Of a stretch of 64,000 nt of DNA, positions 1 through 26,369 are shown piece by piece. A model generated the notes under the pieces. It searched no databases. It was not told where the DNA came from and saw nothing but the letters and a program-made list of their open reading frames with translations. The first letter of the stretch is position 1; each line of letters starts with the position of its first letter. A program made the position numbers and the translations under genes. Origin of the DNA: Cupriavidus basilensis. Lineage in GTDB: Bacteria > Pseudomonadota > Gammaproteobacteria > Burkholderiales > Burkholderiaceae. The stretch covers positions 1-64,000 of the forward strand of contig NZ_CP062804.1 in the NCBI RefSeq assembly GCF_008801925.2. Direction: 5' to 3'.

Positions 1-1044
1 ATGGACAGTGAGCCCTCCCGCATCATCGTTCCCGGCGACGAGAACAGTCTGGTTCCGTCCGAGAAATTCCAGCGCCTGTTCGACGAAGCCCAGGCCATGG
101 AGCGCGAAGATGCGTGGCAAAGTGGCGAAGTCGGCTTTTTGAGCCGAGCCAGTGTGCAGGTTACCTTGCCTTACCGGGCGCCAAAGGGTGCTCCGCCCGT
201 GTGGACCCGAACCAGCGGAAATATTTCGCTGATGATCCAGCCTGGATACTTCACCCAGCAGCGTTCAGAAAAGGCCAGCAACGGACGCCAGAAACTGGTG
301 TCCGAAACGGTCTCGCTCGGCTATCCCTACGGCTCCTATCCGCGCCTGATGCTTGCCTGGATCGGCAAGGAGATCATGGCCAAGAAAAAGCGCGGCGAGT
401 TTACCGGGACGGTCGAGGACCGCCGCATCTCGCTGGGCAATTCGCTGTCCGAGTTCATGTACAACCTGGGCATTCCGATGGCCACCGGCGGCAAGCGTGG
501 CACCATGACCCTGGTGCGACAGCAGATGATCCGCCTGTTCTCCGCGACCATTGCGATCGTCCAGAACAAGTCCACGCCGAGCCAGAATCAGAACCAGAGC
601 CACGAGCCGCTTTCGATCGATCGCGTTGGCTATCTGCTGGCAGACCAGCTGTCGACCTGGTGGGATCCGATGCAGCCGGGGCAGGGCTCGATGTTCGAGA
701 GCTTTGTGGTACTGTCCGAGCCATTTTTCAATGAGCTGGTTAACCGGCCCGTTCCGGTTGACATGCGCGCGCTGAAGGCACTCAAGCAGTCGCCGTTCGC
801 GCTGGACGTATACTCCTGGCTGACCTACCGCTTCTTCACGATCCAGCGGCGTACCGAGATTCCGTGGGAAGCCTTGCAGATGCAGTTCGGCACTGAAACC
901 GAAAGTGAGCGGAAATTCCGTGCACTGTTCCGTAAGGCGCTCAAGGATGTGCTGGTTGTCTATCCGGGTGCCAAGGTGGATGCGGATTCGTCCAAAGCTC
1001 TGATCCTGCAGCCTTCCCGTACGAGCGTTCGCAAGCTCGCCTGA
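1..1044 (+). CDS. repA: RepA-type replication initiator of a secondary replicon
   Basis: Probable plasmid/chromid replication initiator (RepA_C-like family) that would bind the replicon origin and recruit the replisome. The 347-residue protein has the family's central segment: a YPYGSYPRLMLAWIGKE block near residue 110, then a LGNSLSEFM block and GGKRGTMTLVRQQM near residues 160-180, followed by an RLF motif. Family assignment is by recall of these conserved blocks. The ATG is base 1 of the window, so the deposited replicon was probably linearised here; an upstream start cannot be excluded. A strong intrinsic terminator follows 20 bases after the stop. The parAB genes just downstream fit a replication/partition locus. 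Confidence 0.85.
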   Translation: MDSEPSRIIVPGDENSLVPSEKFQRLFDEAQAMEREDAWQSGEVGFLSRASVQVTLPYRAPKGAPPVWTRTSGNISLMIQPGYFTQQRSEKASNGRQKLVSETVSLGYPYGSYPRLMLAWIGKEIMAKKKRGEFTGTVEDRRISLGNSLSEFMYNLGIPMATGGKRGTMTLVRQQMIRLFSATIAIVQNKSTPSQNQNQSHEPLSIDRVGYLLADQLSTWWDPMQPGQGSMFESFVVLSEPFFNELVNRPVPVDMRALKALKQSPFALDVYSWLTYRFFTIQRRTEIPWEALQMQFGTETESERKFRALFRKALKDVLVVYPGAKVDADSSKALILQPSRTSVRKLA

Positions 1045-1064
1045 GGCTGGCCGCACCCTTGCCG

Positions 1065-1096
1065 AACCCGCCAGCTGAATGAGCTGGCGGGTTTTT
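1065..1096 (+). terminator. Intrinsic terminator of repA
   Basis: A perfect 12-bp inverted repeat (AACCCGCCAGCT, 1065-1076, and its complement 1082-1093) with a 5-nt loop runs directly into a T-tract. It lies 20 bases after the repA stop. Confidence 0.9.
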
Positions 1097-1167
1097 CATT
1101 GGCCCCCCAGACATTGCGTGAACGTGCCTGGATGCAAGCCAGACGTTGTTTGCCCTGCAAGAAGCAC

Positions 1168-1195
1168 AAAAGGCAAGCGTAAACGCTTGCCTTTT
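1168..1195 (-). terminator. Intrinsic terminator downstream of the cold-shock gene
   Basis: A perfect 12-bp stem (AAAAGGCAAGCG, 1168-1179, and complement 1184-1195) with a TAAA loop. The U-tract is built into the stem arm in both directions, so it can act bidirectionally. It lies about 65 nt beyond the cold-shock stop codon on the minus strand. Confidence 0.85.
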
Positions 1196-1260
1196 GCTTT
1201 GCCTACCGCGTCAAGCCCGAGAGCGAGGCGCAGTCTGCGATTTCGGCGTGATTCGTGAGA

Positions 1261-1464
1261 TCAGGCCGGCTTGATGGCGGATGCCTGCAAGCCCTTCGGG
1301 CCCTGCTTGACTTCAAACGTGACGCGCTGACCATCCTTGAGCGTCTTGAAGCCCGAACCCTGGATTTCGGAGAAGTGCGCAAACAGATCCGCACCGCCGT
1401 CGTCCGGGGTAATGAAGCCAAAGCCCTTGGTCTCATTGAACCATTTGACCGTACCGGTTGTCAT
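1261..1464 (-). CDS. cspA: Cold-shock protein, CspA family
   Basis: Small single-stranded nucleic-acid-binding OB-fold protein, an RNA chaperone/antiterminator family. The 67 residues are the length of a classical Csp. The RNP1-type motif KGFGFI (residues 13-18) and RNP2-type motif DLFAHF (26-31) are both visible. An upstream in-frame ATG would add 11 residues, but the start at 1464 is preferred because AAGGAA lies just before it and [10 protein letters not shown] is the family N terminus. A long leader of about 100-250 nt lies upstream, typical of cold-shock mRNAs with a structured 5' UTR. It sits between repA and parA but is probably a separate transcript. Confidence 0.93.
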
Positions 1465-1680
1465 GTGAATTTCCTTTCGAAGCAAGTTCTTGTACACAAC
1501 GCAAACAACGCTAACAACCGTTCAAGCACGCTAAGTTCTCGTAGTTACCGAACGGATGCCGCGAGGTGACACGACTTGACTCGACTGTTGCGGGCATCAT
1601 AACCAGTTTGTCTAGTTGTGTCATGTGCGCCGAAAGACGCACTATCGTTACTTTAGGCGTATTCCGTGCCGCATTTCAAG

Positions 1681-1741
1681 TGGAAATCTTTCATTTCCAT
1701 AACGCGAAATATCTTCGCTAATTTTATATTTAAAATATAAA
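1681..1741. promoter_or_regulatory. Cluster of three inverted repeats upstream of parA
   Basis: Three inverted repeats occur in 61 bp: TGGAAAT-N5-ATTTCCA (1681-1699), GCGAA-N5-TTCGC (1704-1718) and TTTATATTT-A-AAATATAAA (1723-1741). The stretch is much more AT-rich than its surroundings. It lies between the cspA leader and parA, so it may hold parA promoter and operator sites or part of the replication origin. No iterons or obvious DnaA boxes were recognised. Confidence 0.5.
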
Positions 1742-1802
1742 TTCAAAAAACAGTTGAGCCGAGACGTCACTTTGACTAAAGTTGCGGCTAGCGATAATCG
1801 CG

Positions 1803-1818
1803 CTTTCAGCGCTGAAAG
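1803..1818. promoter_or_regulatory. parS-like centromere site, copy 1
   Basis: Perfect 16-bp palindrome CTTTCAGCGCTGAAAG. The 14-bp core recurs inside parB at 2652-2665. ParB proteins bind short palindromes near their own genes, so this is the likely parS of the replicon. It lies just upstream of the preferred parA GTG start (1829) and could also serve in autoregulation. Confidence 0.7.
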
Positions 1819-1828
1819 AGAGGTCGTA

Positions 1829-2488
1829 GTGCCAGCTAAAATCATCACGGTCTTCAACCAAAAGGGCGGCTGCGGAAAGACCACGGTCAGCATGCATCTC
1901 GCAGGTACGCTCGGATTGCGCGGCGCGCGATCGATGCTTGTCGATATGGACGAGCAGGGCACGGCAACGCGCTGGGCCGCGCAGGCAAGCGACGAGCGGC
2001 CTTTTCCTGCTTCTGTGATCGGCCTGGCGCCGTCCGGCGGTGCAATGCACCGCGAAGTGAGGAAATTCATCCAGGACTACGACTACATCGTCGTCGATTG
2101 CCCTCCCGCGGTACATTCGGCGGCGCCCTCGAGCGCGCTGCTGATTTCCGATCTGGCAATCATCCCGGTGGTCCCATCACCTCCAGACCTTTGGGCAGCG
2201 GTGGCCGCAAAGACCCTGGCCCAACATGCTCAGGTCCAGAACGAGACGCTGCGTATCCGCGTCATGGCAAACATGGTGCAGCGGCGCGTTTCCATTGCGC
2301 GCCAGGCGATTGAGATTCTGGGGGACGATCTGGAAATCCCGCTGATGCAATCGATGATCGGTTCGCGCTCGCCGTTCCGTGAATGCCAGGCGATTGGATG
2401 TACCGTGCACGGCGTGGCTGGCGCGCGTGAGTCCGTGCAGGAAGTCGACATGATGGTCGACGAAGTATTGTCTTTGATTGAGCACTAG
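1829..2488 (+). CDS. parA: ParA partition ATPase
   Basis: Walker-type partition ATPase that works with ParB-parS to segregate the replicon. The deviant Walker A motif KGGCGKTT lies about 11 residues in, the switch region is VDMDEQGT and Walker B is YIVVDCPPA. A TTG start at 1754 would add 25 residues, but the GTG at 1829 is preferred: AAAGAGAGG lies just upstream and family proteins begin close to the IITVFNQKGG strand. That gives 219 residues, the short form without an N-terminal HTH. The palindrome at 1803-1818 then falls in the leader. parB follows 2 bases after the stop. Confidence 0.92.
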   Translation: MPAKIITVFNQKGGCGKTTVSMHLAGTLGLRGARSMLVDMDEQGTATRWAAQASDERPFPASVIGLAPSGGAMHREVRKFIQDYDYIVVDCPPAVHSAAPSSALLISDLAIIPVVPSPPDLWAAVAAKTLAQHAQVQNETLRIRVMANMVQRRVSIARQAIEILGDDLEIPLMQSMIGSRSPFRECQAIGCTVHGVAGARESVQEVDMMVDEVLSLIEH

Positions 2489-2490
2489 GT

Positions 2491-3504
2491 ATGGCGACAA
2501 AATTGAAAAGCCTCAAAGCAGGCATGTTGGCGGGAATGGCGGCAGAAAAGACACGAGGGGACGCGATCGATCGCTTTGCCCGCGCCGAAGCGGCAATTTC
2601 GCAACACCCCAACGGCTTGCTCCAGGCGCGCGGTAGAGAGCCGAGCCCCATTTTCAGCGCTGAAAGTGAGTCCGAGGAGGAGGGCGGACGGATCCTGATG
2701 AAGGTGCCACTGGCGCAGCTCCACGACAATCCGTTCAACGCCCGCCGCATCTACGACCCTGTGGTGGTACAGGAACGCGCGGCGTCAATTGCCACCCATG
2801 GCCAGAAGACACCGGGCCTGGCGACGCCGGATCCGGCCCGGCCGGGGCACTACATCCTGATCGATGGCCACTACCGCAAGCGGGCGCTAGCCTCCGCGGG
2901 CAAGCTCGAGATGGAGTGCTTCATCGAGAGCAACCTGAATGACCTGGATTTCTACCGGCTGTCGTTCCTGCTCAATGAGCAACGGTCGGACCAGTCGGCG
3001 CTGGACAACGCGATCGCCTGGCGCCAACTGCTGGACGAAGGCAAGGTCCAGAAAGAGGAAGACATCTGCGAACTGACTGGCATGTCGGCAGGCACGGTTA
3101 ACAAGACACTGGCGTTGCTCAGACTGCCCGAGTCGGTCCTGGGCGTCATGCGCGAGCGTCCCAGCGCAATCGGGATTGCCACCGGCTATGAGCTGACGCT
3201 CTATTGCAAGATTGTTGGAGAGGACCGCACACGGGACCTGGCCACGCGCATCATGGCAGAGGGCTTGTCCAGCCGTGAGGTCGAGGCAATTCGCAAGCAC
3301 GCGCAGGAAGGCAAGGCGCGCAAGATCAAGGAGATCAGCCGCCAGTACAAGATCCGCAGCGACACTGGGCAGTTGCTGGGTACGATCAAGGAGTGGGATT
3401 CCGGGCGCGTGGTGCTGGATGTGCAAGTGAACGACCGCGGCGCGCGCGAAGCACTGGTCGAGACGCTCAAGGCGCGGTTTGGCCTGGAAAAGACCGCTAG
3501 CTGA
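2491..3504 (+). CDS. parB: ParB partition protein
   Basis: Centromere-binding partition protein of 337 residues, cotranscribed with parA. It has a charged N-terminal tail, a ParB/Srx nuclease-like fold with NPFNARRIYD (about residues 79-88) and the GHYRKRA box, a central HTH region around KEEDICELTGMSAGTVNKTL, and a C-terminal dimerisation segment. A 14-bp copy of the parS-like palindrome lies in its own coding sequence at 2652-2665. Gene order repA-cspA-parA-parB fits the origin region of a chromid. Confidence 0.92.
   Translation: MATKLKSLKAGMLAGMAAEKTRGDAIDRFARAEAAISQHPNGLLQARGREPSPIFSAESESEEEGGRILMKVPLAQLHDNPFNARRIYDPVVVQERAASIATHGQKTPGLATPDPARPGHYILIDGHYRKRALASAGKLEMECFIESNLNDLDFYRLSFLLNEQRSDQSALDNAIAWRQLLDEGKVQKEEDICELTGMSAGTVNKTLALLRLPESVLGVMRERPSAIGIATGYELTLYCKIVGEDRTRDLATRIMAEGLSSREVEAIRKHAQEGKARKIKEISRQYKIRSDTGQLLGTIKEWDSGRVVLDVQVNDRGAREALVETLKARFGLEKTAS
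2652..2665. promoter_or_regulatory. parS-like centromere site, copy 2 (inside parB)
   Basis: Perfect 14-bp palindrome TTTCAGCGCTGAAA, identical to the core of the site at 1803-1818. One outer base pair differs. It is embedded in the 5' part of parB. Confidence 0.65.
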
Positions 3505-9218: not shown

Positions 9219-10628
9219 ATGTCGACGGTCCGCGCATTCGTTGCCGAGAGGCAGGCCGCCCTGCAAATCCTGTATCGCTTCGCCGATGCGGCTATCGTTG
9301 CCGCCTGCGGCGCGGTGGTTGGCGAGCTGCTGTTCCCCCAAGGCCTGCGTAGCGCCGCTCCGGTCCATGGCTTCATCACCGTGTTGTGTTCGGTCAGCAC
9401 CTTGCTGGTGTTCCCTGCCTGTGGCCTGTACAACTCCTGGCGGGGCCGCAGCCGCGCTGCGCTGGCGGTGCGCACGCTCGCGGCCTGGGGCGCGGTGTGC
9501 ATGCTGGGCCTGGTCACCGCGTACCTGATGCACCAGTCGGCCGCGCTGTCCCGGCTTTGGTCGATGGGCTGGGTCCTGAGCGTGGCCGTCATGCTGCTGG
9601 CCTCCCGGGTGGTGCTCTACGGCATGCTGGGCAGCGTGCGCGAGCATGGCATCAACGCCAAGCGCGTGGTGATCCTGGGCTACGGATCGCTCGGCCACGA
9701 GATGTACCAGCGCGTACGGAGCAATCGCGGCGCGGGCTACGATGTGGCCGGCATCTACGACGAAGGCACCGAGCAGCCGGTGCCCGCGGGCGTAACGCGG
9801 CTGGATTCGCTGCAGCAGGTCTGCACGTTCGTGCGCAACAACGGCGTGCGCGAAATCTGGCTGACGCTGCCGATGGCTGCGTGCCGCGATCTCTATGACG
9901 TGGTGTCCCACTTCCGCAACGACCTGATCGACATCCGCTGGGTGCCCGACATCATGTCGGTCGAACTGCTCGGCCATCGCTTCAGCGACTTCCTTGGCCT
10001 GCCGGTCATCGACCTGAACAGCCCGCCGCAGTCGGGCATCACGGGTTTGCTCAAGGGCAGCTTCGACCGCGCTTTCGCGCTGGCGGCGCTGGTCGGGCTG
10101 TCGCCGCTGCTGCTGCTGATCGCCGTGCTGGTCAAGCGCTCGTCTCCCGGCCCTGTCCTGTTTCGCCAGACTCGCCTGGGCATGGATGGCCGGCCGTTCC
10201 ATGTCTACAAGTTCCGCACCATGGTGCAGCACCAGGACGCGGGCAGCGTGACCCAGGCCGTGCGCGGCGATGCCCGCGTCACGCGCATCGGTGCCTTCCT
10301 GCGCCGCACCAGCCTGGACGAGCTGCCGCAGTTCATCAACGTGCTGCGCGGCGAGATGTCGGTGGTGGGTCCGCGCCCGCACGCCATCGAGCACAACGAG
10401 ATCTACAAGGAAGTCATCGATCGCTACATGCTGCGCCACCGGGTCAAGCCCGGCATCACGGGCTGGGCGCAGATCAACGGCTTTCGCGGCCAGACCGACA
10501 CGGTAGAGAAGATGCGCAAGCGCATCGAGTTCGACATCTTCTACATCCGCAACTGGTCCTTCAGCCTGGACCTGCACATTATCTTGCGCACCGCGCTGCA
10601 TGGTTGGACGGGACGCGAGGCGTTCTGA
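9219..10628 (+). CDS. Undecaprenyl-phosphate sugar-1-phosphate transferase (WcaJ/WbaP type)
   Basis: Initiating enzyme of EPS synthesis: it transfers a hexose-1-phosphate from a nucleotide sugar to undecaprenyl phosphate at the inner membrane. The 469 residues give an N-terminal four-helix membrane region (about 15-145), a nucleotide-binding-like middle domain ([14 protein letters not shown] near 150) and a C-terminal catalytic bacterial sugar transferase domain. That domain has a re-entrant helix (about 285-310), [39 protein letters not shown] and GPRPHA. RBS GGAGG precedes the ATG. The length and three-part layout match the glucose/galactose-phosphate transferases; the actual sugar is not deducible. 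Confidence 0.93.
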
Positions 10629-10754: not shown

Positions 10755-11006
10755 ATGAAGGCAACCATTCGACAAATCCTTGCCGATGTGGCGCGGCTCG
10801 ACGTGTCGGTAGATGCGCTCGACGACCAGGCCGATCTTTACGAAGCCGGATTGTCATCGCTTGCGACCGTCCATGTGATGCTGGCAATCGAGAACGCATT
10901 CAATATCGAGATCCCGGACGCCATGCTGACCCGGCAGCTCTTTCGCAGCGTCAACTCGCTGGCAGCGGCGGCCGAGCAGCTAAGACAGCAACAGGAGGCA
11001 GCATGA
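10755..11006 (+). CDS. Acyl carrier protein-like carrier protein
   Basis: Stand-alone carrier protein of 83 residues. The phosphopantetheine site reads YEAGLSSLATVHVML: Ser35 is followed by Leu as in ACPs, and the usual preceding Asp is Ser. This atypical form fits the carrier proteins that accompany amino acid:[carrier protein] ligases. RBS GAGGAG is 9 bases upstream. The stop overlaps the next start (ATGA), so translation is coupled to the flavoprotein. Inferred role: holds an amino acid as a thioester made by the ligase at 12213. Confidence 0.88.
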   Translation: MKATIRQILADVARLDVSVDALDDQADLYEAGLSSLATVHVMLAIENAFNIEIPDAMLTRQLFRSVNSLAAAAEQLRQQQEAA

Positions 11007-12202
11007 GCCCCCCACTAGCCAGCGTGGACCTGGCACGCCCGATGGTTGCGCATACCACCGCCGCCGAGCTGATGGCGGCGGCGCAGCTTGCCGCGCTCGA
11101 AGCGGCCAAGCACGCCGATCAAGTCGACCGTGACGCAGCGTTTCCGCACGACGCGTTTGCCGCGATCCGCCAGCACCGGCTGCTCAGCGCCATGGTGCCC
11201 GCGGCGCACGGCGGTGCGGGCGCGTCGCTGGACACGGTCGCGGCCATCTGCCGCGTGCTGGGGGCAGCCTGCTCCTCGGCCGGCATGGTCTACGCCATGC
11301 ACCAGATCCAGGTGGCCTGCATCGTCGAGCACGGCACGGGCAATCCCTGGCATGAGCAGTTGCTTCAACGCATTGCCTCGGAGCAATTGCTGCTTGCCTC
11401 GGCCACCTCCGAGGAAGCGATCGGCGGCGCCCTGCGCAACAGCGGCTGCGCCGTCAATGTCGAAAACGACCGCTTCCATCTGCTCAAGATGGCACCCACG
11501 ATTTCCTACGGCGCGCATTCCGACGCCATCCTGGCTACCGCGCGCCGCCATGCCGATGCCTCGCCCTCGGACCAGGTCATGGTGTGCCTGCTCAAAGACG
11601 ATTTCACGCTGCAGAGCCTCAGCACGTGGGACACGCTTGGCATGCGCGGGACCTGCAGCAACGGCTTTCGCCTGGAGGCGCGCGGCGCCTGCGAGCAGAT
11701 CCTGCCGGTGGCGTTCGGCGAGATCGCGGACGGCACCATGACGCCGGTTTCGCACATCCTGTGGGCCGCCTTGTGGACCGGCATCGCCGGCGATGCCGTG
11801 CAGCGCGCCAAGGCTTTCTTCCAGGGCCAGGCGCGTGCGCGCCCGGGCTCGCTGCCGCCATCGGCCACGCGGGTGGCCGATGCGGTGGCGATGGTGCAGA
11901 TGATGGAAGGGCGGCTTGAGCTCGCATTGGCGCACCAGCGCCAGCGTCACGCGGGGCTCTCGGTGTCGGCGCTGTTCTCGCTCGCCGCGGAGATGAACGG
12001 CCTGAAGACCAGCGTGAGCACGATGGCGATCGAAGTGGTGCAGCAAGCAATGATGATTTGCGGCATGGCCGGCTACAAGCAAGGCACGCCTTACAGCCTC
12101 GGGCGTCACCTGCGCGATCTCTGGTCCGCGCCGCTGATGATCAACAACGACCGGATCCTGACCAACACCGCTAGCTTGCTGCTGGCCGAGCGTTCCAGCT
12201 AA
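11003..12202 (+). CDS. Acyl-CoA dehydrogenase-like flavoprotein
   Basis: Acyl-CoA dehydrogenase fold protein, 399 residues. It has an N-terminal helical domain (FAAIRQHRLLSAMVPAAHGG near 50-70), a middle beta-domain (about 130-225) and a C-terminal helical domain ending in a QQAMMICGMAGYK block typical of the FAD-contact region. A conventional catalytic Glu could not be placed by eye. It overlaps the carrier-protein gene by 4 nt and precedes the amino acid:[carrier protein] ligase. Flavoproteins of this fold oxidise aminoacyl groups tethered to carrier proteins in some nonribosomal pathways, so oxidation of the carrier-bound amino acid is a plausible inference. Fatty-acid oxidation is less likely here. 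Confidence 0.85.
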   Translation: MSPPLASVDLARPMVAHTTAAELMAAAQLAALEAAKHADQVDRDAAFPHDAFAAIRQHRLLSAMVPAAHGGAGASLDTVAAICRVLGAACSSAGMVYAMHQIQVACIVEHGTGNPWHEQLLQRIASEQLLLASATSEEAIGGALRNSGCAVNVENDRFHLLKMAPTISYGAHSDAILATARRHADASPSDQVMVCLLKDDFTLQSLSTWDTLGMRGTCSNGFRLEARGACEQILPVAFGEIADGTMTPVSHILWAALWTGIAGDAVQRAKAFFQGQARARPGSLPPSATRVADAVAMVQMMEGRLELALAHQRQRHAGLSVSALFSLAAEMNGLKTSVSTMAIEVVQQAMMICGMAGYKQGTPYSLGRHLRDLWSAPLMINNDRILTNTASLLLAERSS

Positions 12203-12212
12203 GGAGCACGAC

Positions 12213-13217
12213 ATGGATGCCAACGTCAGCGTGGAAGATCGCGCCAATTCCGCGCCCGCGGATGCCGCCGGCGCGTCGGCCGCTACGCCTTCGTACAGCG
12301 ATCCGCAGGCAGGCCAGCGGCGCTACCAGCAAGCCTTGATCGAGGCGGGCCTGCTGATCCCGAGCGGGGTCGATGGCGTCTATGGCCGCAGCGCGGTGTT
12401 CGAGGCCATTGCGGACGGCCTGAACGTGGCCGTCACCGCGCTCGGCGCCGACCAGCGTGCGGAAGTGATGCGTTTTCCGCCTGCCATGTCGCGCCAGGAT
12501 TTCGAGGCGAGCGACTACTTGAAGAGCTTTCCGCAGCTAGCCGGCACCGTGCACAGCTTCTGCGGCAGCGATCGCGACCACCATCGCCTGCTTGCGCGTA
12601 TGGAGGCGGGCGAGGAATGGGCCGACGAGCAGCGGCCGACCCGCGTGGTGCTCACGCCGGCCGCGTGCTATCCGATCTATCCGGCGGTGGCGCGGCGCGG
12701 CCCGATGCCGCCGCAGGGGCTGGTGGTGGACGTGCTGTCGTATTGCTTCCGCCACGAGCCTTCGATCGATCCGGCGCGCATGCAAATGTTCCGCCAGCGT
12801 GAGTATGTGCGCCTGGGCGATGCCGGACAGATCATCGCCTTTCGGCAGTTGTGGATGGAGCGCGGCCAGCAACTGGCCACCATGCTCGAGCTTCCGCACG
12901 AGGTGGAGGTGGCCAATGACCCGTTCTTCGGGCGTGGCGGCAAGATCGTGGCGGACAGCCAGCGCGAGCTGAAGCTCAAGTTCGAGTTGCTCATCCCGAT
13001 CAACGAGGGCGCCCCGCCCACGGCTTGCATGAGCTTCAACTACCACATGGACCACTTCGGCCAGGTGTGGGCGCTGCGCACCGCCGACGGCGAGCCGGCA
13101 CACACCGGCTGTGTGGGATTTGGCATCGAGCGCCTGACGCTGGCGCTGCTGCGCCACCACGGCTTCGACCTTTCGCTGTGGCCCAAGGACGTACGCGCCA
13201 CGCTGGGAGGGCTGTAA
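12213..13217 (+). CDS. Amino acid:[carrier protein] ligase (class II aaRS-like)
   Basis: Homologue of atypical seryl-tRNA synthetases that lack the tRNA-binding arm and load an amino acid (Gly or Ala in characterised members) onto a carrier protein's phosphopantetheine arm. The 334 residues hold class II motif 2 (SYCFRHEPS and MFRQREYVRLG) and motif 3 (GFGIERLTLALL). Candidate zinc ligands Cys152 (TPAACYP), Glu197 (RQREYV) and Cys300 (HTGCVG) show spacing that fits the Cys-Glu-Cys site of this family. The carrier protein is two genes upstream. The stop overlaps the next start by one base (TAATG). The first 30 or so residues are low complexity. Confidence 0.92.
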   Translation: MDANVSVEDRANSAPADAAGASAATPSYSDPQAGQRRYQQALIEAGLLIPSGVDGVYGRSAVFEAIADGLNVAVTALGADQRAEVMRFPPAMSRQDFEASDYLKSFPQLAGTVHSFCGSDRDHHRLLARMEAGEEWADEQRPTRVVLTPAACYPIYPAVARRGPMPPQGLVVDVLSYCFRHEPSIDPARMQMFRQREYVRLGDAGQIIAFRQLWMERGQQLATMLELPHEVEVANDPFFGRGGKIVADSQRELKLKFELLIPINEGAPPTACMSFNYHMDHFGQVWALRTADGEPAHTGCVGFGIERLTLALLRHHGFDLSLWPKDVRATLGGL

Positions 13218-14209
13218 TGCTCGTTGACCCGCGAACCCTGGAGCGCGGCATGCACGTGTCGCACGCCTTGCACAATGGCAATCCCGTCTGGCCGCAGACC
13301 AACTGCTATGTGGACTTGTGGATCGAACTGCTGCACGGCTGGGAGCTGGACCCGGTTGCGGCGCTCGGGTTCACCGTGTCGCAGGATTTCGAGGGCGATC
13401 AGTTCACCTTCTTCAAATACCCGCCGGACGATCTCGAACGTCTCTACGGCGTGGTGGTGCAGGAGCTGTCGCTGTATGAGTCGATGGAAGACCGCGTCGC
13501 CGGGCAGACCTGCCGCGGCCACGTGGTACTGCTCGAGGTGGATGGCTTTTACCTGCCGGACAACCGGGCTACGTCGTACCGGCGCGAACATACCAAGACC
13601 ACCATCGGCATCGATGTGATGATGCCCGAGGCGCAGTCCGTGGGTTACTACCATAACGAGGGCTATCACGTGGCCACGGGCGAGGACTACGCCGGGTTGT
13701 TCCGCCGCCTGCCCGCGCTGGCGGACGACGTGAACCTGCTGTTCCCCTACGCCGAGGTGGCGCGCCGCCGGTTTCCCGCGCTGGAAGGAACGATGCTGGT
13801 GCGCGCCTCGCTGGCGCTCTTGCGCAAGCACCTGGCACGCCGTCCGCGTCAGAATCCCATCACGGCTTTCCGCACGGCGTTTCCCGCGCATCAGGAAGCG
13901 CTGATGGCCGGTGGCGAGCAGACCTTCCATCCCTACGCTTTTAGCGTGCTGCGCCAGCTCGGCGCCAACTTCGAGCTGCTCGGGCAGTACCTGCGCTGGC
14001 TGGCGCAGCATGGCCAGCCGATGCCCGAGAGCATAGCGGGCGCGTGCCACAAGCTCGCGTCCGAGGCCATGGTGATGCAGTTCCGCCTGGTGCGCTCCAT
14101 CATCAGCCGCCGCGTGGATCGTTGCCAGGATTGCCTGGACCAGCTCGAGGCCTCCTACGAGGCGGCGGTGCCGGCGCTGGCGGGCTACGTGGGCGAAGCC
14201 GAGTACTGA
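13217..14209 (+). CDS. DUF1839-family protein
   Basis: A 330-residue protein of the DUF1839 family, which is usually encoded beside amino acid:[carrier protein] ligases and has no established activity. Notable motifs: QTNCYVDLWIELLHGW near the N terminus, DFEGDQFTFFKYP (about 60-72) and RREHTKTTIGID (about 122-133). A Cys, a His and several acidic residues in the N-terminal half could form a transferase or thioesterase-like site, but this is speculation. The C-terminal half is helical. No membrane segment or signal peptide is visible, so it should be cytosolic. The ATG overlaps the ligase stop by one base. A natural guess is the acceptor-transfer step for the carrier-bound amino acid. Confidence 0.82.
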   Translation: MLVDPRTLERGMHVSHALHNGNPVWPQTNCYVDLWIELLHGWELDPVAALGFTVSQDFEGDQFTFFKYPPDDLERLYGVVVQELSLYESMEDRVAGQTCRGHVVLLEVDGFYLPDNRATSYRREHTKTTIGIDVMMPEAQSVGYYHNEGYHVATGEDYAGLFRRLPALADDVNLLFPYAEVARRRFPALEGTMLVRASLALLRKHLARRPRQNPITAFRTAFPAHQEALMAGGEQTFHPYAFSVLRQLGANFELLGQYLRWLAQHGQPMPESIAGACHKLASEAMVMQFRLVRSIISRRVDRCQDCLDQLEASYEAAVPALAGYVGEAEY

Positions 14210-14221
14210 GGGCCGCCCGCC

Positions 14222-16846
14222 ATGCATGCGCCGCTTGGCTTGACACCTGTCCCCGGACGACCTGTGCACCGGCAACCGCTCACCGGCGACTGGGCCTTGC
14301 TGGAGACGCCCGCCGGCGCCGTGGCCTCGCCCGCGGCGCTGGCCGGGCGCGGCCCGTGGATGGCGGCCCAGGTGCCCGGGACCGTGGCGCAGGCGCTCCA
14401 GGCTGCGGGGCAATGGCAGGCGGCGGCACCGCGCCCGCTGCACGATCACGACTACTGGTACCGCGTGACGGTGTCCGGCGCGGGCGCGTACCGCCTGCGC
14501 CTGCACGGCCTGGCTACCGTGGCCGAGGTCTGGCTGGATGCGGCGCGCGTGCTCGACGCGCAGAACATGTTTACAGCGTTCGAGGCCGAGCTCCATCTCG
14601 ATGGCGAGCATGTGCTCTGCCTGTGCTTTCGCTCGCTGCACCGCTGGCTGCGCACGCAGCGCGGGCCGGTGCGCTGGAAGCCGCGCATGATCACGCCGCC
14701 CACATTGCGCCTGGTCCGCACCACGCTGCTCGGCCACATGCCCGGCTGGTGCCCAAGCGTGCACACGATCGGGCCCTGGCGCGGCATCGACCTGCTGCCC
14801 CTTGCCACCGACGCGAGCCCGCTGCTGACGGCGCGCCTGGACCTGCAGGCAAGCCTGGCCGCCGATGCGGCGCAGGGTGGCGTCATTCGGCTGCGCCTGC
14901 GTGACGTGGCACCGCTGCCGCCAGCGATGACGATCATGCTGTGCGCCGATGGCCGCGAGGCACCCATGAAGGCAGTGGATGCCGGCACCGGCGGCATCGT
15001 CTACGAGGGCGAGTTGTCCGTGCCCGAGCCGCGCTTGTGGTGGCCGCACACGCATGGCGAGCCCGAGCGCTATGCGGTGCATCTGCGGCTGGGCGAAGAG
15101 CGCATCACGTGCGGGCAGGTCGGCTTTCGCCGCATCGAGCTCGACCGGACTATCCAGGGCAGCACCGACGGCCTGGCGGACCGCGAAGAGGACGCCCAGG
15201 GGTTTGCGCTGCGCGTCAACGGCGAGCGTATCTTTTGCCGCGGGGCCTGCTGGACCAGCCACGACCTTGCCAGCCACGCCGATGCGCCCGACGACATACA
15301 GAAGTGGCTAGTGCTGGCGCACGGCGCGGGCATGAACATGGTGCGCGTGAGCGGCGTCACCTGCTACCAGGGAGAAGCCTTCTTCGACGCGTGCGATGCG
15401 CTTGGCCTGCTGGTCTGGCAGGATTTCATGTTCGCGAACTTCGATTACTCGGCCAGCGCCGAAGCCGCGCGCCCGCTGATGGCGCAGGCCGAGCGCGAGG
15501 TCAGCGAGTGGCTGGCGGCGCATCGCCACCATCCCAGCATCGCGGTACTGTGCGGCGGCAGCGAAGTCGAGCAGCAGGCCGCGATGATGGGCACGCCCGC
15601 GGCCACCTGGCGCCAGCCTTTGTTCGACGAGATCATTCCGGCGTGCATTGCGGCCTGGCATCCCGACGCGGTGTATGTGCGCAACTCGCCGTGCGGCGGT
15701 GCGTGGCCCTTCCAGGCCGACAGCGGTGTGACGCACTACTACGGCGTGGGCGCCTACCAGCGCCCGCTTGACGACGCACGCCGCGCCAACGTGCGGTTTA
15801 CCTCGGAGTGCCTGGCATTTTCCAACGTGCCATGCGCGCGGACCATGGCGGACGCGCTCGCGGTGCCGCCCGTGCATGATCCACGCTGGAAGGCCCGTGT
15901 GCCGCGCGACGCCGGCAGCGGCTGGGACTTCGAAGACGTGCGCGACTTCTATTTGCGCGAATTGTTCAAGGTGGACCCGCCGCGCCTGCGCTACGAGGAC
16001 ACGGCACGCTACCTGGCGTTGTCCCGCGCCGTGGTGGCGGAGCTGATGACCGACGTCTTCAGCGAATGGCGGCGAGCGGGCTCGACCTGCTCGGGTGGCC
16101 TGGTGTGGCAGTTGCAGGACCTGCTGCCCGGCGCGGGCTGGGGCATTGTCGATGCGCTGGCCCGGCCCAAGTCGGCCTGGCATGCCTTGCGCCAGGTGTG
16201 GCAGCCGCTACAGGTGCTGATCACCGACGAAGGCCTCAATGGTATTCACCTGCACCTGATCAACGAGAGCGCCACGCCGCGCAATTTGCGCCTGCAACTG
16301 CAATGCTGGCGCGACGGCGAGACCGTGTTGCTTGATGTTGCGCGCGATCTGTGCCTGGCCCCGCGCTCCACGCGGCGCATCAGCGGCGCCGCGCTGGCAG
16401 GGACCTTTTTCGATTTCACATACGCCTATCGCTTCGGGCCGCGCCTGCATGACGTGGTGCGCGCCGCGCTGGTCGATCCCTGCGACGGCGCCCTGCTGAG
16501 CCAGGCCTGCTACCTGCCCGATCGCAGCGCGGGCGCGCTCGAGCCGCCGGAGCTGACGGTCGGCGTGGCGCGCGAGGACGGCGACTGGTGGCTTACGGTG
16601 TCAACCCGGCGCTTTGCGCGCTGGGTGCACATCGACGATATCGCCTTTCGCGCGGAACACGACTGGTTCCATCTCGCGCCCGGCAGCCAGCGGCGCGTGA
16701 AGCTCTTACCCGATCACGGCCCGAAAGGTGGAGGCCGTGAAGGCACGCAGGGTGTAGGCCTTGCGCAGGCAGATCCCATCCCGATGGGGGAGGTACATGC
16801 TCTCAATGCGCGCCGCGCGATTGCCTACAGCGCGCCAGGCGCCTGA
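14222..16846 (+). CDS. Glycoside hydrolase family 2 (beta-mannosidase-like) protein
   Basis: An 874-residue protein with GH2 architecture: an N-terminal sugar-binding jelly roll (about 18-195), an Ig-like domain (about 200-305), a TIM barrel (about 325-690) and C-terminal beta domains. Barrel landmarks are CRGACWTSHDL, the acid/base candidate Glu448 in CGGSEVE (family GNE form altered) and the nucleophile candidate Glu529 in RFTSE. No signal peptide is visible, so it would be cytosolic, which is odd for a polysaccharide-degrading enzyme. It starts 12 bases after the DUF1839 stop and ends the carrier-protein operon. It may trim or transfer sugars on a lipid-linked or nucleotide-linked intermediate. 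The last 40 residues look atypical. Confidence 0.82.
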   Translation: MHAPLGLTPVPGRPVHRQPLTGDWALLETPAGAVASPAALAGRGPWMAAQVPGTVAQALQAAGQWQAAAPRPLHDHDYWYRVTVSGAGAYRLRLHGLATVAEVWLDAARVLDAQNMFTAFEAELHLDGEHVLCLCFRSLHRWLRTQRGPVRWKPRMITPPTLRLVRTTLLGHMPGWCPSVHTIGPWRGIDLLPLATDASPLLTARLDLQASLAADAAQGGVIRLRLRDVAPLPPAMTIMLCADGREAPMKAVDAGTGGIVYEGELSVPEPRLWWPHTHGEPERYAVHLRLGEERITCGQVGFRRIELDRTIQGSTDGLADREEDAQGFALRVNGERIFCRGACWTSHDLASHADAPDDIQKWLVLAHGAGMNMVRVSGVTCYQGEAFFDACDALGLLVWQDFMFANFDYSASAEAARPLMAQAEREVSEWLAAHRHHPSIAVLCGGSEVEQQAAMMGTPAATWRQPLFDEIIPACIAAWHPDAVYVRNSPCGGAWPFQADSGVTHYYGVGAYQRPLDDARRANVRFTSECLAFSNVPCARTMADALAVPPVHDPRWKARVPRDAGSGWDFEDVRDFYLRELFKVDPPRLRYEDTARYLALSRAVVAELMTDVFSEWRRAGSTCSGGLVWQLQDLLPGAGWGIVDALARPKSAWHALRQVWQPLQVLITDEGLNGIHLHLINESATPRNLRLQLQCWRDGETVLLDVARDLCLAPRSTRRISGAALAGTFFDFTYAYRFGPRLHDVVRAALVDPCDGALLSQACYLPDRSAGALEPPELTVGVAREDGDWWLTVSTRRFARWVHIDDIAFRAEHDWFHLAPGSQRRVKLLPDHGPKGGGREGTQGVGLAQADPIPMGEVHALNARRAIAYSAPGA

Positions 16847-22483: not shown

Positions 22484-24727
22484 CTACCGGCTCTGCACCG
22501 TATCCACGTCCTGGTACCGATAGTTCAGATACCGGTACTTGCCGAAGTTGTAATGCGCCCGATACCACCGCCCTTGCACATTCAGCCCGTTGAACAGCAC
22601 GCCCTTCACTTCCCCGCCCACCTGCCTGATCGCCCTGCCCGCGGCTTCCAGTTCATCCACGGTAGTCGAGTCCGCACGGGCCACCATGAAGACCGCATCC
22701 GCCTTGGTAGCGAGGATGCCGGTATCCGAGGCGGCCAGCACTGGCGGCGTGTCGATCAGCACGATGTCATAGTTCGCCTTTAGCGCATTGAGCAGCGCGT
22801 CCATCGCGGGACTCAGCAGCAGGTCTGCGGGATGCTCGGGCAGTGTCCCGGTGGGAATGAAATCCAGCCCGGGCACAACCTGCCTGCGCACGGCGGGCTC
22901 CACCGGCGCGCCCTGCAGCAGCTCGGTCAGGCCGGGGCCACGGTCGGTGTCGAAGCGCCGGTTCAGGTTGCCCCGCCGCAGGTCGGCATCGATGAGCACC
23001 ACGCGCTTGCCACCGGCGGCGAGCACCGCGGCGAAGTTGGCGCAGATGAAGGACTTTCCGACACCCGGCGCCGGGCCCGTCACCAGGACCACCGGATGGC
23101 GGTTGCCAAGCAGTGAGAACTGCAAGGCGGTGCGGAAGCTGCGCAAGCTCTCCATGGCGGGATCGTCGGGCATCCGGCAGGCCAGCAGCGCGGCCTTCGG
23201 GTTGCCCTGCGTGGCCAGGCGAGACTGTTCCGGGCTGAACGGGATGGTGGAGTACACCGTGAACCCCGTCAGGTTTTCGATATCGTCGGCCTCGGCGACG
23301 CCGCCGTCCAGCATGTGGCGCAGGCACACGACGATCAGCGCGCCCACGGTGCCAAGCATGGCCGCAAATATCACCAGCAGCGACCGGTTGGGCCGCACGG
23401 GTTGCAAGGGCACTTCGGCCGGGTCGACCATGCGCGCGGTCCCCACCTTGCTGGCCTTGGTCAGCTTGAGTTGCTGGGCGTCGTTGAGCAGCGACTGGTA
23501 AAGCTCGGTGCTGACCTTGACATCGCGCAGCAGGCGCAGCACGTTTTGCTCCACTTCAGGCAGTTTCTGGATACGCGTGGTCACGCCGGCGAGCGCGGCA
23601 TTCAGGCTGCCGATCTGCTCGTCGATGATGCCGATGCTGGGATGGTTGCCGGTAAAGCGCGTCACCAGTTCCTGGCGTTTCGCGCGCAGCTCCTGCAAGC
23701 GTGTCTGGATCTGCACGGACTGCGAGAGGATCAGCTTCGACTCTTCGCCCAGGTCGATCGTGCCGCGCTGGTTGCGCAGCGCGTTATAGCGCGTCTCGGC
23801 GGTTTCCACCTGCTGCTTGACCTGTGGCAGCTGCTGGTCGAGGAAGGCCAGGGACTTCTCGGCCTCTTCCGCCCTGCGGCGCACGTTCTGGTCGACATAC
23901 TCACTGCCGATCTCGTTGAGCGTTGCCGCGATCAGGTCCGGGTCCGGGCCTTCAAGGGTGATGCCGATCACCCCGCTCGACTTGCCGCGTTCGGCAATCT
24001 GCAGGGATTGCTGCAGCTGCGCGATGGCAATGGCCCGAGGCAGCCGCGTCACATGGAAGGTGGCGCCAGGGTTGCCTTCCAGTTCCGTAATGAGGATCTC
24101 GACGTTGCCGCGCGAGGTTGGCACGAGCAGCGGCTGGCCGACGGTGCCCGTTGCCATGGTCTGCTCACCCTTGACGTTCAGCCGGTACCGTTTGCCGTCA
24201 AGGGCCGTCACCGTCATCCGGGTGCCTTCCAGCCGCGTCGGCATGTCGAGGCGGCCCACCGTGATGCGTTCGTCGCCCCAGACAAAGCCGCCCCAGCCAA
24301 AGAGGCCGGGTTCCGACAGGCCAGGGTTGTAGCGTGCCAGCGCCTGGCCGATCACCGGAAAGTAGCTCGGCCTGGCATCGATGAACAGCTTCAGGCTTTC
24401 CACGGCCTTGCCCACCACCATGCGCGAGTGCAGCAGCTCGATCTCCGCGGCGGCGGCCGGCTTGACGTCGAAGACCGGCGCCACGCTGCCCGCAAGCTTG
24501 GTGTTGGCGCTGCTGCCCGTGTCCTCCACCTGCACCACGATATCGGTACGGTAGACGGACTTGGTGAAGAACGCGTAGGTCGCGCCCAGGGTGAAGACCG
24601 TGCCTGCGATCAGGATGAAGGTCCAGCGGTAGCGCATCAGCACGTCGAGATAGCCGGTCAGGTCGATCGACTTCTCCCGCTGAACGCGCCCCCCCGGCAA
24701 TGCCTCGTGTGGATTGAACGTGTTCAT
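22484..24727 (-). CDS. wzc: Wzc-type EPS tyrosine autokinase with tyrosine-rich tail
   Basis: Polysaccharide co-polymerase and BY-kinase, 747 residues, controlling chain length and export through Wza. A first membrane helix (about 35-55) is followed by a periplasmic Wzz/GNVR region with coiled coil (about 290-420), a second helix (about 450-470, LLVIFAAMLGTVGALIVVCL) and the kinase. Walker A is GPAPGVGKSF, A' VLIDADLRRGN and B IVLIDTPP. The C terminus has the autophosphorylation Tyr cluster (YRAHYNFGKYRYLNYRYQ). The start is fixed by GGGGAGG upstream and a 4-nt overlap with the phosphatase gene. It completes the wza-phosphatase-wzc export operon. Confidence 0.95.
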   Translation of the reverse strand: MNTFNPHEALPGGRVQREKSIDLTGYLDVLMRYRWTFILIAGTVFTLGATYAFFTKSVYRTDIVVQVEDTGSSANTKLAGSVAPVFDVKPAAAAEIELLHSRMVVGKAVESLKLFIDARPSYFPVIGQALARYNPGLSEPGLFGWGGFVWGDERITVGRLDMPTRLEGTRMTVTALDGKRYRLNVKGEQTMATGTVGQPLLVPTSRGNVEILITELEGNPGATFHVTRLPRAIAIAQLQQSLQIAERGKSSGVIGITLEGPDPDLIAATLNEIGSEYVDQNVRRRAEEAEKSLAFLDQQLPQVKQQVETAETRYNALRNQRGTIDLGEESKLILSQSVQIQTRLQELRAKRQELVTRFTGNHPSIGIIDEQIGSLNAALAGVTTRIQKLPEVEQNVLRLLRDVKVSTELYQSLLNDAQQLKLTKASKVGTARMVDPAEVPLQPVRPNRSLLVIFAAMLGTVGALIVVCLRHMLDGGVAEADDIENLTGFTVYSTIPFSPEQSRLATQGNPKAALLACRMPDDPAMESLRSFRTALQFSLLGNRHPVVLVTGPAPGVGKSFICANFAAVLAAGGKRVVLIDADLRRGNLNRRFDTDRGPGLTELLQGAPVEPAVRRQVVPGLDFIPTGTLPEHPADLLLSPAMDALLNALKANYDIVLIDTPPVLAASDTGILATKADAVFMVARADSTTVDELEAAGRAIRQVGGEVKGVLFNGLNVQGRWYRAHYNFGKYRYLNYRYQDVDTVQSR

Positions 24728-25188
24728 GCTACCTCCCCGTGACATTGATCCCGTGCAATGGCGCGAATGCGCACCGACCATGAATCGACCCCTTGCCTGA
24801 TCAGCCCCAGCACGATCCTGAACATATTCTGCGAACAGCCATAGGGATCAGGCACGTCAGCGTGCATGAACTCGCAAAGGCGGTAGACCTTTCCGCGTGC
24901 CTGCGGATACTGGCGCTCAAGCGCTTCTCTTTGTTCTGTGTCCATCACCAGCACCAGGTCGGCGCCGTTGATCATGTCTTCGTCCACGGTGCGCGCGCGG
25001 TGTCCTGAGAGATCGAGGCCGTCCTCCTCGAGCAGGCGCACCGTATGCGGATCGGCGGCGGCGCCCTCCAGCGGGGCCAGCCCGGCGGAGCTCACCGTGC
25101 AGCCGGGCAGCGCGTGGCGTAGCAGGCCCTGTGCCATGGGGCTGCGGCAAGTATTGCCGATGCACACTACCAGGATCGAGCGGATCAT
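24724..25188 (-). CDS. wzb: Low-molecular-weight protein-tyrosine phosphatase (Wzb type)
   Basis: Dephosphorylates the Tyr tail of the adjacent Wzc kinase, a cycle needed for polymerisation and export. The 154 residues begin with the P-loop CIGNTCRS (Cys9 nucleophile, Arg15); the general acid is Asp114 in VPDPYG. No signal peptide is present, so it is cytoplasmic. It lies 11 bases after wza and overlaps wzc by 4 bases, so all three are cotranslated. Confidence 0.95.
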   Translation of the reverse strand: MIRSILVVCIGNTCRSPMAQGLLRHALPGCTVSSAGLAPLEGAAADPHTVRLLEEDGLDLSGHRARTVDEDMINGADLVLVMDTEQREALERQYPQARGKVYRLCEFMHADVPDPYGCSQNMFRIVLGLIRQGVDSWSVRIRAIARDQCHGEVA

Positions 25189-25199
25189 CGCGGCCTCGC

Positions 25200-26369
25200 T
25201 TACTTGACCACGCTGGCGGCGCTGAACGCACCGCTCGTCGATGGCAGCAGCAGGTTGACCACGCGGCTCCAGCGCACCAGTTCGCGCGCGTCGACATACA
25301 CCACGTCCTTTGCCTCGAGCTCGAAGCCTTCGGCGATGGCCAGCGCCACCGGCGACGTGCCGTCCAGGTGATACACCTTGGGCTCGCCGTCCGCCGCCTT
25401 GCGGATCACGAAGATCTGCTCCGCGTTGGCGGTGTTCGGGTTCACGCCGCCAGCGTCGCCAATGGCCTCATTCAGCGTCATGCGGCCATTGCGCATCAGC
25501 AAGGTGGTGGGGCGCACCACCTCGCCGGTGACGAAGATCTTGCTGTCCTCGCGCTGTTCCACGCGCACGATGTCGCCGTTCTTGAGCATGATGCGCGAGG
25601 GATCGATGCCGCGCGCGAGCAGTGCCGGGATGTTGACGTGCCAGCTGCGCTCGCCGCGCGTGATGCGGATGCGGCTGTTGTCGCCCGTCAGGTTGAGCAC
25701 GCCGCCCGCGCGGTTAAGCGCCTCGATCAGCGTCATCGGCGCGTCGTCGATCGGTTGCATGCCAGGCGTGCGCACTTCGCCGTCCACATAGATGCGCTGG
25801 CTGCGAAACGCGAGCACGCGCACCGTCATCTGGGGATCGCGCACCACGCGCGAGAGCACCTTCGCGATCTGGTCGCGCACGTCGTTCGCCGTCCTGCCCG
25901 CGACCTTCATCACGCCGGCGTAGGGAAACTGGATATCGCCCTGCGCGCTCACCACATAGCCGGGCACATTGGAGCCGCCGCCCACCGCGGGGATTTCATA
26001 CGCGGCGCCGATGCTGTAGGTCTGGTTGGGGAAGACCAGTTCCGGGTGATCCCACACCACCACCGAGACGATATCGCCCGGGCCGATGAGATAGGGCTGC
26101 GGCTTGCCATAGAGTTCGTCCAGCTTCTCGACCTCGCGCTGCGCCATGGTGCGCTGGTTGCGCACCACCTCCAGCGTGATCGGCGTGATGTTGGGCATGG
26201 CATCGGGCCCGACCGCGCCGATGGGTGCCTTGGGGTCGAAGTGCATGCCTGGCGAGCTTGCGCAGGCGGCGAGCAACAGCGTCGCGCATAGCATGGCAAG
26301 GCATGCCAGCGGCCGGCATTGGCGTTGCGCGTTCCCGTGTTGCCCGTCATGGTCGGTGATCTCGTTCAC
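25200..26369 (-). CDS. wza: Wza-type outer-membrane polysaccharide export lipoprotein
   Basis: Outer-membrane channel for EPS. The GTG at 26369 is preferred because GGAGG lies 5 bases upstream; in-frame ATGs further up lack one. The 389-residue protein opens with a short charged stretch, then a lipoprotein signal ending LLLAACASS (lipobox LAAC). Next come the PES motif (PYLIGPGDIVSVVVWDHPEL), a first SLBB-like domain, a second one around VYVDGEVRTPG and a third around IFVTGEV. The C-terminal segment (RWSRVVNLLLPS) probably forms the amphipathic membrane helix. It is the first gene of the minus-strand export operon. Confidence 0.93.
   Translation of the reverse strand: MNEITDHDGQHGNAQRQCRPLACLAMLCATLLLAACASSPGMHFDPKAPIGAVGPDAMPNITPITLEVVRNQRTMAQREVEKLDELYGKPQPYLIGPGDIVSVVVWDHPELVFPNQTYSIGAAYEIPAVGGGSNVPGYVVSAQGDIQFPYAGVMKVAGRTANDVRDQIAKVLSRVVRDPQMTVRVLAFRSQRIYVDGEVRTPGMQPIDDAPMTLIEALNRAGGVLNLTGDNSRIRITRGERSWHVNIPALLARGIDPSRIMLKNGDIVRVEQREDSKIFVTGEVVRPTTLLMRNGRMTLNEAIGDAGGVNPNTANAEQIFVIRKAADGEPKVYHLDGTSPVALAIAEGFELEAKDVVYVDARELVRWSRVVNLLLPSTSGAFSAASVVK

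Follow-up and report, generated by a model that had tools for sequence, protein, structure and literature searches.

A conserved amino acid:[carrier protein] ligase cassette in an exopolysaccharide locus of Cupriavidus basilensis, a candidate route to aminoacylated sugars

Amino acid:[carrier protein] ligases of the Bll0957 type and their carrier proteins (CPs) are credited to Mocibob (2010 and 2013) in the available part of a review (PMC9437257), and a review table, likewise available as an excerpt, lists ligase paralogues that add Ala, Gly or Ser. The gene neighborhood of such a ligase is also in print. A 2010 note in proof (PMC2922099, available in part) places a seryl-tRNA-synthetase-like ligase near genes for liposaccharides, a glycosidase, an acyl carrier protein (ACP), a redox enzyme, and the uncharacterized protein Atu2574, and predicts that this last protein links an amino acid through an amide bond to the amine of a cell-surface sugar. 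Here, we analyzed a stretch of 64,000 nucleotides from Cupriavidus basilensis (NZ_CP062804.1, positions 1 to 64,000 of the forward strand; hereafter the window), in which a five-gene cassette of this kind lies within an exopolysaccharide (EPS) locus. We regard it as an evenly balanced proposition that the cassette encodes an accessory, CP-dependent route, resembling lincosamide synthetase, that couples a small and possibly oxidized amino acid to a sugar.

The cassette is real, conserved, and previously noted. The initial annotation had presented it as the best candidate for an undescribed system, a claim that does not hold, since both the neighborhood and the amide-ligase role appear in the 2010 note, which is thus a printed forerunner of that inference. 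Assuming from its description there that Atu2574 is DUF1839, the gene set and the predicted product are the same as for the window cassette. The redox enzyme is called a Rossmann-fold protein in that paper, whereas here it has the fold of an acyl-CoA dehydrogenase (ACAD), and the accessible passages contain no structure, no split of the loci into types A and B, no analysis of the glycosidase active site, and no control for the EPS linkage. What is added here is the DUF1839 active-site pattern, a flavoprotein without the ACAD glutamate, the GH2_14 motif of the glycosidase, and the pairing seen in type B loci. No experimental test of the role of the cassette was found in the literature searched, which covered few subscription papers, and no pathway test for Atu2574, Atu2573, bll0957, or blr6284 was found in the passages available.

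All five genes that the initial annotation had read at 10755-16846 are present on the + strand and form a tight cassette:

10755-11006, + strand: carrier protein, 83 aa, phosphopantetheine site Ser35 (GLSSLATV); NF005480, PF00550
11003-12202, + strand: ACAD-like flavoprotein, 399 aa; PF02771, predicted-structure pLDDT 89.4
12213-13217, + strand: amino acid:[carrier protein] ligase, class II aminoacyl-tRNA synthetase (aaRS)-like, 334 aa; NF005479, 4h2w/3mey
13217-14209, + strand: DUF1839 protein, 330 aa, proposed carrier-dependent aminoacyl transferase, Cys30-Thr128-His146; PF08893
14222-16846, + strand: GH2 retaining beta-glycosidase, 874 aa, Ser447-Glu448 acid/base motif, Glu529 nucleophile; PF22666/PF17753

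Consecutive genes are spaced by -4, +10, -1, and +12 bases (overlaps of 4 and 1 bases), so that a single transcript is plausible. A promoter scan returned 0 sites (0.5 expected), and 2 terminator-like sites were found (3.6 expected).

Predicted roles of the cassette proteins

The DUF1839 protein scored 455.8 bits against PF08893 (gathering cut-off 22.5). Its structural model has a papain-like fold with a Cys nucleophile and a large helical C-terminal half, as in AziU3/U2, CtaG, and CcbD, which were its only significant fold neighbors. The papain-like fold of DUF1839 and a C(T/S)H pattern were published in 2023 (PMC10318531, available in part). Cys30, Thr128, and His146 of the window protein fit this pattern and, judging by their conservation, may form a permuted active site. 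Because its fold matches those of CcbD and CtaG, DUF1839 is likely a transfer enzyme, and more precisely a carrier-dependent aminoacyl transferase. CcbD makes an amide and has a Cys-His-Glu triad, according to the accessible part of PMC12945683. The CcbD/LmbD structures (PDB 7yn1, 7yn2, and 9dkr) have the same overall fold as the DUF1839 model at 12-13% identity, and the window operon differs in adding an ACAD-like enzyme and a GH2 protein. It should be noted that loading in lincosamide synthesis is carried out by a nonribosomal peptide synthetase adenylation domain, whereas the window has an aaRS-like ligase. CtaG (closthioamide) and AziU2/U3 (azinomycin) also share the fold, at 10-13% identity. 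These, too, are biosynthetic enzymes, and CtaG makes an amide; to our knowledge, they act on other substrates, none of them a sugar. No literature pairing DUF1839 with carrier proteins was found. We therefore describe DUF1839 as working like CcbD rather than as being a CcbD, since amide transfer from a CP to an amino sugar is a prediction only.

The CP scored 128 bits against NF005480 (PRK07081 'acyl carrier protein'; cut-off 72) and matched PP-binding (PF00550) in a Pfam scan, while the ligase scored 523.9 bits against NF005479 (PRK07080 'amino acid--[acyl-carrier-protein] ligase'; cut-off 357). In a sequence search of the PDB, ligase residues 50-332 aligned with Bll0957 (3mey) and with amino acid--[ACP] ligase 1 (4h2w). 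Two residue patterns named in the initial annotation were borne out in the homologues: the carrier site Ser35 is Ser in 112/115 (the remainder being two gaps and one Pro), and the Cys-Glu-Cys pattern of the ligase (Cys152, Glu197, and Cys300), which aligned with the solved ligase chain, is conserved in 114/114. We take these three to be the positions of the Bll0957 zinc ligands. Glycine and alanine are substrates of the ligases studied so far and, by analogy, the window ligase would load an amino acid onto the CP rather than onto a tRNA.

The flavoprotein passed the Acyl-CoA_dh_N model (46 bits, cut-off 22.9), narrowly missed Acyl-CoA_dh_1 (21.5 bits, cut-off 22.4), and reached no curated NCBIfam cut-off; its predicted structure has the ACAD fold. 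The FMN monooxygenase DszC was ranked first by Foldseek, and the Z-scores were 40.4 for dehydrogenases, 39.9 for ColB1, and 38.7 for DszC. DszC and the nitrososynthases are group D flavin monooxygenases, which use the ACAD fold for chemistry with reduced flavin and O2. ColB1, according to its structure title, dehydrogenates an assembly-line-tethered cysteine. Classical acyl-CoA dehydrogenases carry their catalytic Glu within a C-terminal (Y)EG motif. In a profile alignment to 7p98, with the position judged by eye, this place is held by Ile380, which is Ile in 112/115 homologues, and His251, Trp254, and Trp258 are invariant (115/115). The protein therefore seems to lack the classical (Y)EG glutamate, although a base at another position, as in IVD, would still be possible. 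Because Ile380 replaces the catalytic Glu, the flavoprotein probably falls outside the classical acyl-CoA dehydrogenases. Since glycine has no Cbeta, oxidation or oxygenation at Calpha-N would suit all types, and we consider Calpha-N oxidation or monooxygenation likelier than classical acyl-CoA dehydrogenation.

The GH2 protein matched Glyco_hydro_2_N2 and Ig_mannosidase, and its closest solved structures are beta-mannosidases. Both catalytic glutamates (Glu448 and Glu529) were found in 118/118 copies, and the Asn that precedes the acid/base is replaced by Ser447 in 117/118, which is the Ser-Glu motif of GH2_14. That subfamily, in the accessible part of PMC12243196, shares the nearness to beta-mannosidases and has the fewest signal peptides among the subfamilies; the likeness is judged by motif. 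At the loop-2 position, a Trp on the C2/C3 side in mannosidases, the 118 copies have Gly (78), Ser (32), Pro (6), or Ala (2), and the window protein has Ser377 where GH2_14 is marked by Gly. This altered site near C2 would fit a C2-aminoacylated sugar and does not prove one. A secreted trimming enzyme was considered and rejected, as 10 N-termini examined by eye had no evident signal peptide.

Conservation, loss, and duplication of the cassette

We assembled 107 DUF1839-type loci: the window, 16 stretches from sampled genomes, 80 named loci (the best 80 of at least 577 relatives), and 10 plasmid records. Presence and order were scored by model matches on stop-to-stop frames; gene calls miss some genes. 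The labels 'Rhizobiaceae-type' and 'alphaproteobacterial-type' reflect likeness to named plasmid loci. The exact order CP-ACAD-ligase-DUF1839-GH2 was found in 101/107 loci, which is far beyond chance. The six exceptions are L021 (a second DUF1839 copy alone at a contig end), L039, L041, L044, L115, and L121. All five genes were also present in 20/20 further Rhizobiaceae-type loci (20 of 25 new places covered, in stretches of 13-20 kb); three new places of the alphaproteobacterial-type class are left out of the neighbor counts below. DUF1839 occurs in 16/398 Pseudomonadota genomes, in 5/385 genomes of the alphaproteobacterial-type class (that of G043), and in 29/151 genomes of the Rhizobiaceae-type family. 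The ligase is above its cut-off in 28/398 Pseudomonadota genomes, including all 16 with DUF1839 (with an internal stop in G197).

The other 12 ligase genomes define a second architecture, type B (L132-L143), in which an ACAD gene adjoins the ligase in 12/12 and a divergent CP is found in 10/12, while DUF1839 and GH2 are absent beside the ligase in all 12 stretches. The remaining neighbors vary between groups (10 proteins scanned). The same pairing appears in a table in the accessible part of PMC10888616, where the acyl-CoA dehydrogenase gene bll0958 is given next to bll0957. The window thus shares with the Bll0957-type systems a ligase above the family cut-off, the zinc ligands, and an adjacent CP and ACAD-like gene, and differs in having both DUF1839 and GH2. 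Because type B keeps the ligase-ACAD pair, loading and oxidation would form the core of the system, and DUF1839 with GH2 a module of the window type; type B loci in this way separate loading and oxidation from the transfer step. Four of the distant ligase relatives (L144-L147) scored below the family cut-off, at 131-175 bits, and belong to a different branch; the ACAD and CP models had no match in the stretches fetched for them.

Reduced cassettes were found in C. respiraculi (L039), C. gilardii USM5 (L041), and Cupriavidus sp. AU9028 (L044), in which a ligase match is absent genome-wide. What remains at the locus is CP-ACAD-DUF1839, CP-DUF1839, and ACAD-DUF1839, respectively, without GH2, and all three loci keep high-scoring EPStrans, Crp, Wzc, and Wza matches. 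The EPS locus can thus apparently do without the cassette. In P. ribeironis (L115), the ACAD and ligase genes are missing at the locus, the GH2 gene is in pieces, and a ligase lies on another contig. On R. leguminosarum plasmid pRL7 (L121:12962-17591), the ACAD gene is in two pieces and a GH2 remnant lies beside an IS5 transposase.

Nineteen DUF1839 copies lack Cys30, and 16 of them have a Cys at position 129. Eighteen are in-operon copies of Cupriavidus type (a set that includes records named Ralstonia sp. and Burkholderiaceae bacterium 16), with Arg (13) or Gln (5) at position 30, as in L022:7401-8378 and L126:15001-15981. These 18 form one clade and include all 16 copies with Cys at position 129; 17 of them share their locus with a further copy that retains Cys30, and the genome of L030 carries its second copy on a separate contig (L021). 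The remaining Cys-less protein, L039, is present as a single copy, and no ligase was detected in its genome. In the 18 two-copy loci, the second copy, which is divergent and lies mostly beside ManC, has Cys30 in 18/18 and the first copy lacks it in 17/18; in L062, positions 30 and 129 of the first copy are both Cys. The nucleophile may have moved, or the two copies may have divided their roles. We rejected the Cys-less copies as a disproof of the importance of Cys30, given that 18 of the 19 fall in one clade with second copies that retain this residue and that the other is the copy of the ligase-less L039 genome. The window genome has one DUF1839 copy, with Cys30.

Linkage to exopolysaccharide genes

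The cassette lies where the initial annotation had placed it, after a Bac_transf transferase and before a Crp-like regulator and a Wzc-type kinase:

9219-10628, + strand: EPS initiating sugar-phosphate transferase; PF02397 (Bac_transf), 229 bits
17072-17794, + strand: Crp/Fnr-type regulator; PF13545, PF00027
17734-20244, + strand: Wzc-type tyrosine kinase/chain-length protein; PF23607, PF13807, PF13614
20377-22401, + strand: alpha/beta hydrolase with a double domain, probably a sixth member (start codon uncertain); enriched in Rhizobiaceae-type cassette stretches

The window locus comprises the initiating transferase, two Wzc-type proteins, Wza, glycosyltransferases, ManC, a GDP-mannose dehydratase, and an epimerase; an exosortase (EpsH) was not found in the window's own genome (0/1). 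A match to EPStrans, Wzc, or Wza was present in 77/80 named Burkholderiaceae loci, which are close relatives, scored without a control by models built from the same loci, and a CRP family match in 73/80. For the Rhizobiaceae-type stretches, which the models predate, EPS-type matches were found in 10/20 versus 2/16 controls (Fisher p=0.03, a value that overstates independence because these loci are related). The controls were one fixed stretch per genome, of which 16 of 20 were taken, four contigs being too short. A wider count gave EPS-type neighbors in 17/31 loci versus 1/16, and is biased upwards because some of the case loci had served to train its flippase and GT2 models. The double alpha/beta hydrolase was present in 15/20 Rhizobiaceae-type stretches versus 0/16 controls; in L023 (14373-17696), it is fused to a Polysacc_synt_3 flippase, and two other members of the hydrolase cluster are long as well.

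On plasmids, an EPS assembly gene beside the cassette is missing in 7/8 annotated loci (Caballeronia, Mycetohabitans, two Azospirillum, Rhizobium gallicum, Phyllobacterium, and the broken R. leguminosarum copy), although the PLSDB tables used are incomplete. One of the Azospirillum cassettes has a Crp-type regulator upstream. The Mycetohabitans cassette (L118) has an ArnT-like lipid A aminoarabinosyltransferase gene and an LTA-synthase-family gene (23229-25241, downstream) within ~10 kb, with an acyltransferase gene (11085-12326) directly upstream of the CP. The R. gallicum cassette (L123:3589-12486) is carried by a conjugative plasmid directly downstream of nifHDK-nifNX-fdxB, with an EPS repressor gene in between. 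In the Shinella plasmid locus, GumC, an O-antigen ligase, and a glycosyltransferase are encoded 6-12 kb upstream. Two unannotated plasmid records were scored by models: that of C. metallidurans has EPS genes and that of Methylobacterium bullatum only the hydrolase. Among the plasmid records, the EPS models were strong on L122 and L126 only.

The EPS linkage is therefore real but not obligatory. The co-occurrence expected from the initial annotation holds in part: it is seen in the Burkholderiaceae and in the controlled comparison, and is missing from most of the annotated plasmid loci. The cassette as part of an obligatory EPS gene set was rejected on account of the isolated plasmid cassettes and the reduced ones.

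Proposed pathway and alternative explanations

From the observed fold, gene order, and residue patterns, we infer catalytic steps, an amino acid, an acceptor, and a product as follows. The ligase would adenylate a small amino acid and load it onto the phosphopantetheine of the CP, a reaction that the literature shows for homologues. The ACAD-fold flavoenzyme may then oxidize the CP-bound aminoacyl group. Cys30 of DUF1839, aided by His146 and Thr128, would accept the acyl group, like CcbD/LmbD in lincosamide synthesis, and pass it to the amine or, less likely, to a hydroxyl of a sugar, an acceptor suggested by the fold, the active-site pattern, and the operon. The GH2 enzyme, apparently retained in the cell and altered near C2, would trim or transfer the substituted glycosyl unit and, in EPS loci such as that of the window, the product would most likely be an EPS decoration. 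The carrier-bound amino acid, oxidation, and sugar transfer of the initial annotation are supported as a reading; an obligatory EPS role is not. A more specific version, in which such a lincosamide-synthetase-like machine, made up of a stand-alone aaRS-derived ligase, the CP, an ACAD-fold oxidase, and DUF1839 as a CcbD-like enzyme with a permuted triad, acts on cell-surface glycans, leaves an oxidized aminoacyl-amide on a sugar, and has its product finished or proofread by a C2-tolerant intracellular GH2, is possible, and we hold it tentatively. The fold match gives DUF1839 a specific predicted role that names a nucleophile and can be assayed, and it renders the 2010 prediction concrete. If the cell-surface version is true, it would be a new kind of non-carbohydrate decoration of EPS and would fill in the role that the amino acid:[carrier protein] ligases have lacked; if the pathway is confirmed, enzymes of aaRS type would supply sugar modification in bacteria from soil and in those associated with plants, fungi, and insects.

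Several findings weigh against the proposed pathway. The CcbD-type relatives have just 10-16% identity to the DUF1839 model, the triad order is Cys-Thr-His rather than the Cys-His-Glu of CcbD, and a DUF1839 profile search of solved structures gave no significant match (best E 0.25, to another structure, and none of CcbD type). Neither DUF1839 nor the flavoprotein has any activity on record and, by Z, the latter is as near or nearer to dehydrogenases than to monooxygenases. The EPS genes of the window belong to the GDP-mannose type, and a scan of 20 window proteins (own gene calls, two of them without a family and several outside the EPS genes) turned up no aminotransferase, so that an amino-sugar acceptor is not evident. 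The plasmid loci that lack EPS assembly genes count on the same side, as do the three ligase-less Cupriavidus genomes, which retain DUF1839 (two with Cys30 and one with Ala).

Some of these findings would be accommodated by a soluble aminoacyl-sugar product, comparable to lincosamides or mycothiol, with the EPS linkage reflecting genomic parking or co-regulation. We consider this rather unlikely. It would account for the unbroken cassettes among the plasmid loci without annotated EPS assembly genes, for the 14/31 non-Burkholderiaceae loci with none of the tested EPS-type neighbors, for the persistence of EPS genes where the cassette is reduced, and for the amino-sugar genes not seen among the scanned window proteins. 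The enrichment of EPS-type neighbors, the 77/80 EPS-linked Burkholderiaceae loci, and the flippase-hydrolase fusion of L023 argue for a surface glycan instead, and the ArnT-like and LTA-synthase-family genes mean that the Mycetohabitans locus is not free of surface-glycan genes. That the aminoacyl group goes onto a hydroxyl, as an ester like that of D-alanylation, or onto a protein is improbable. The CP does score with DltC models, though below their cut-offs (37 versus 68 bits), papain-like folds also carry out hydrolysis and protein modification (PMC10318531, in the part available), and the window shows no amino-sugar source; on the other hand, the nearest folds, CcbD and CtaG, make amides and the near-constant GH2 partner points to a sugar. 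A still smaller chance, very low in our view, is given to DUF1839 as a thioesterase or protease-like processing enzyme in a cassette that frees an oxidized amino acid. The papain-like fold with its Cys nucleophile and the three genomes that hold DUF1839 without a detectable ligase are compatible with it, but the only significant fold neighbors are biosynthetic enzymes, the large helical C-terminal half is shared with them, and the glycosidase would be left without a role.

Two features of the wider surroundings were also recorded. Genes that by eye resemble EpmA and EpmB (EF-P lysylation) adjoin the cassette in 9/31 non-Burkholderiaceae loci (L023, L025, L027, L029, L187, L190, L192, L195, and L196). 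In the window itself, genes of RepA_C and ParB type lie at 1-3504, so the EPS locus is probably near the replication origin of a secondary replicon.

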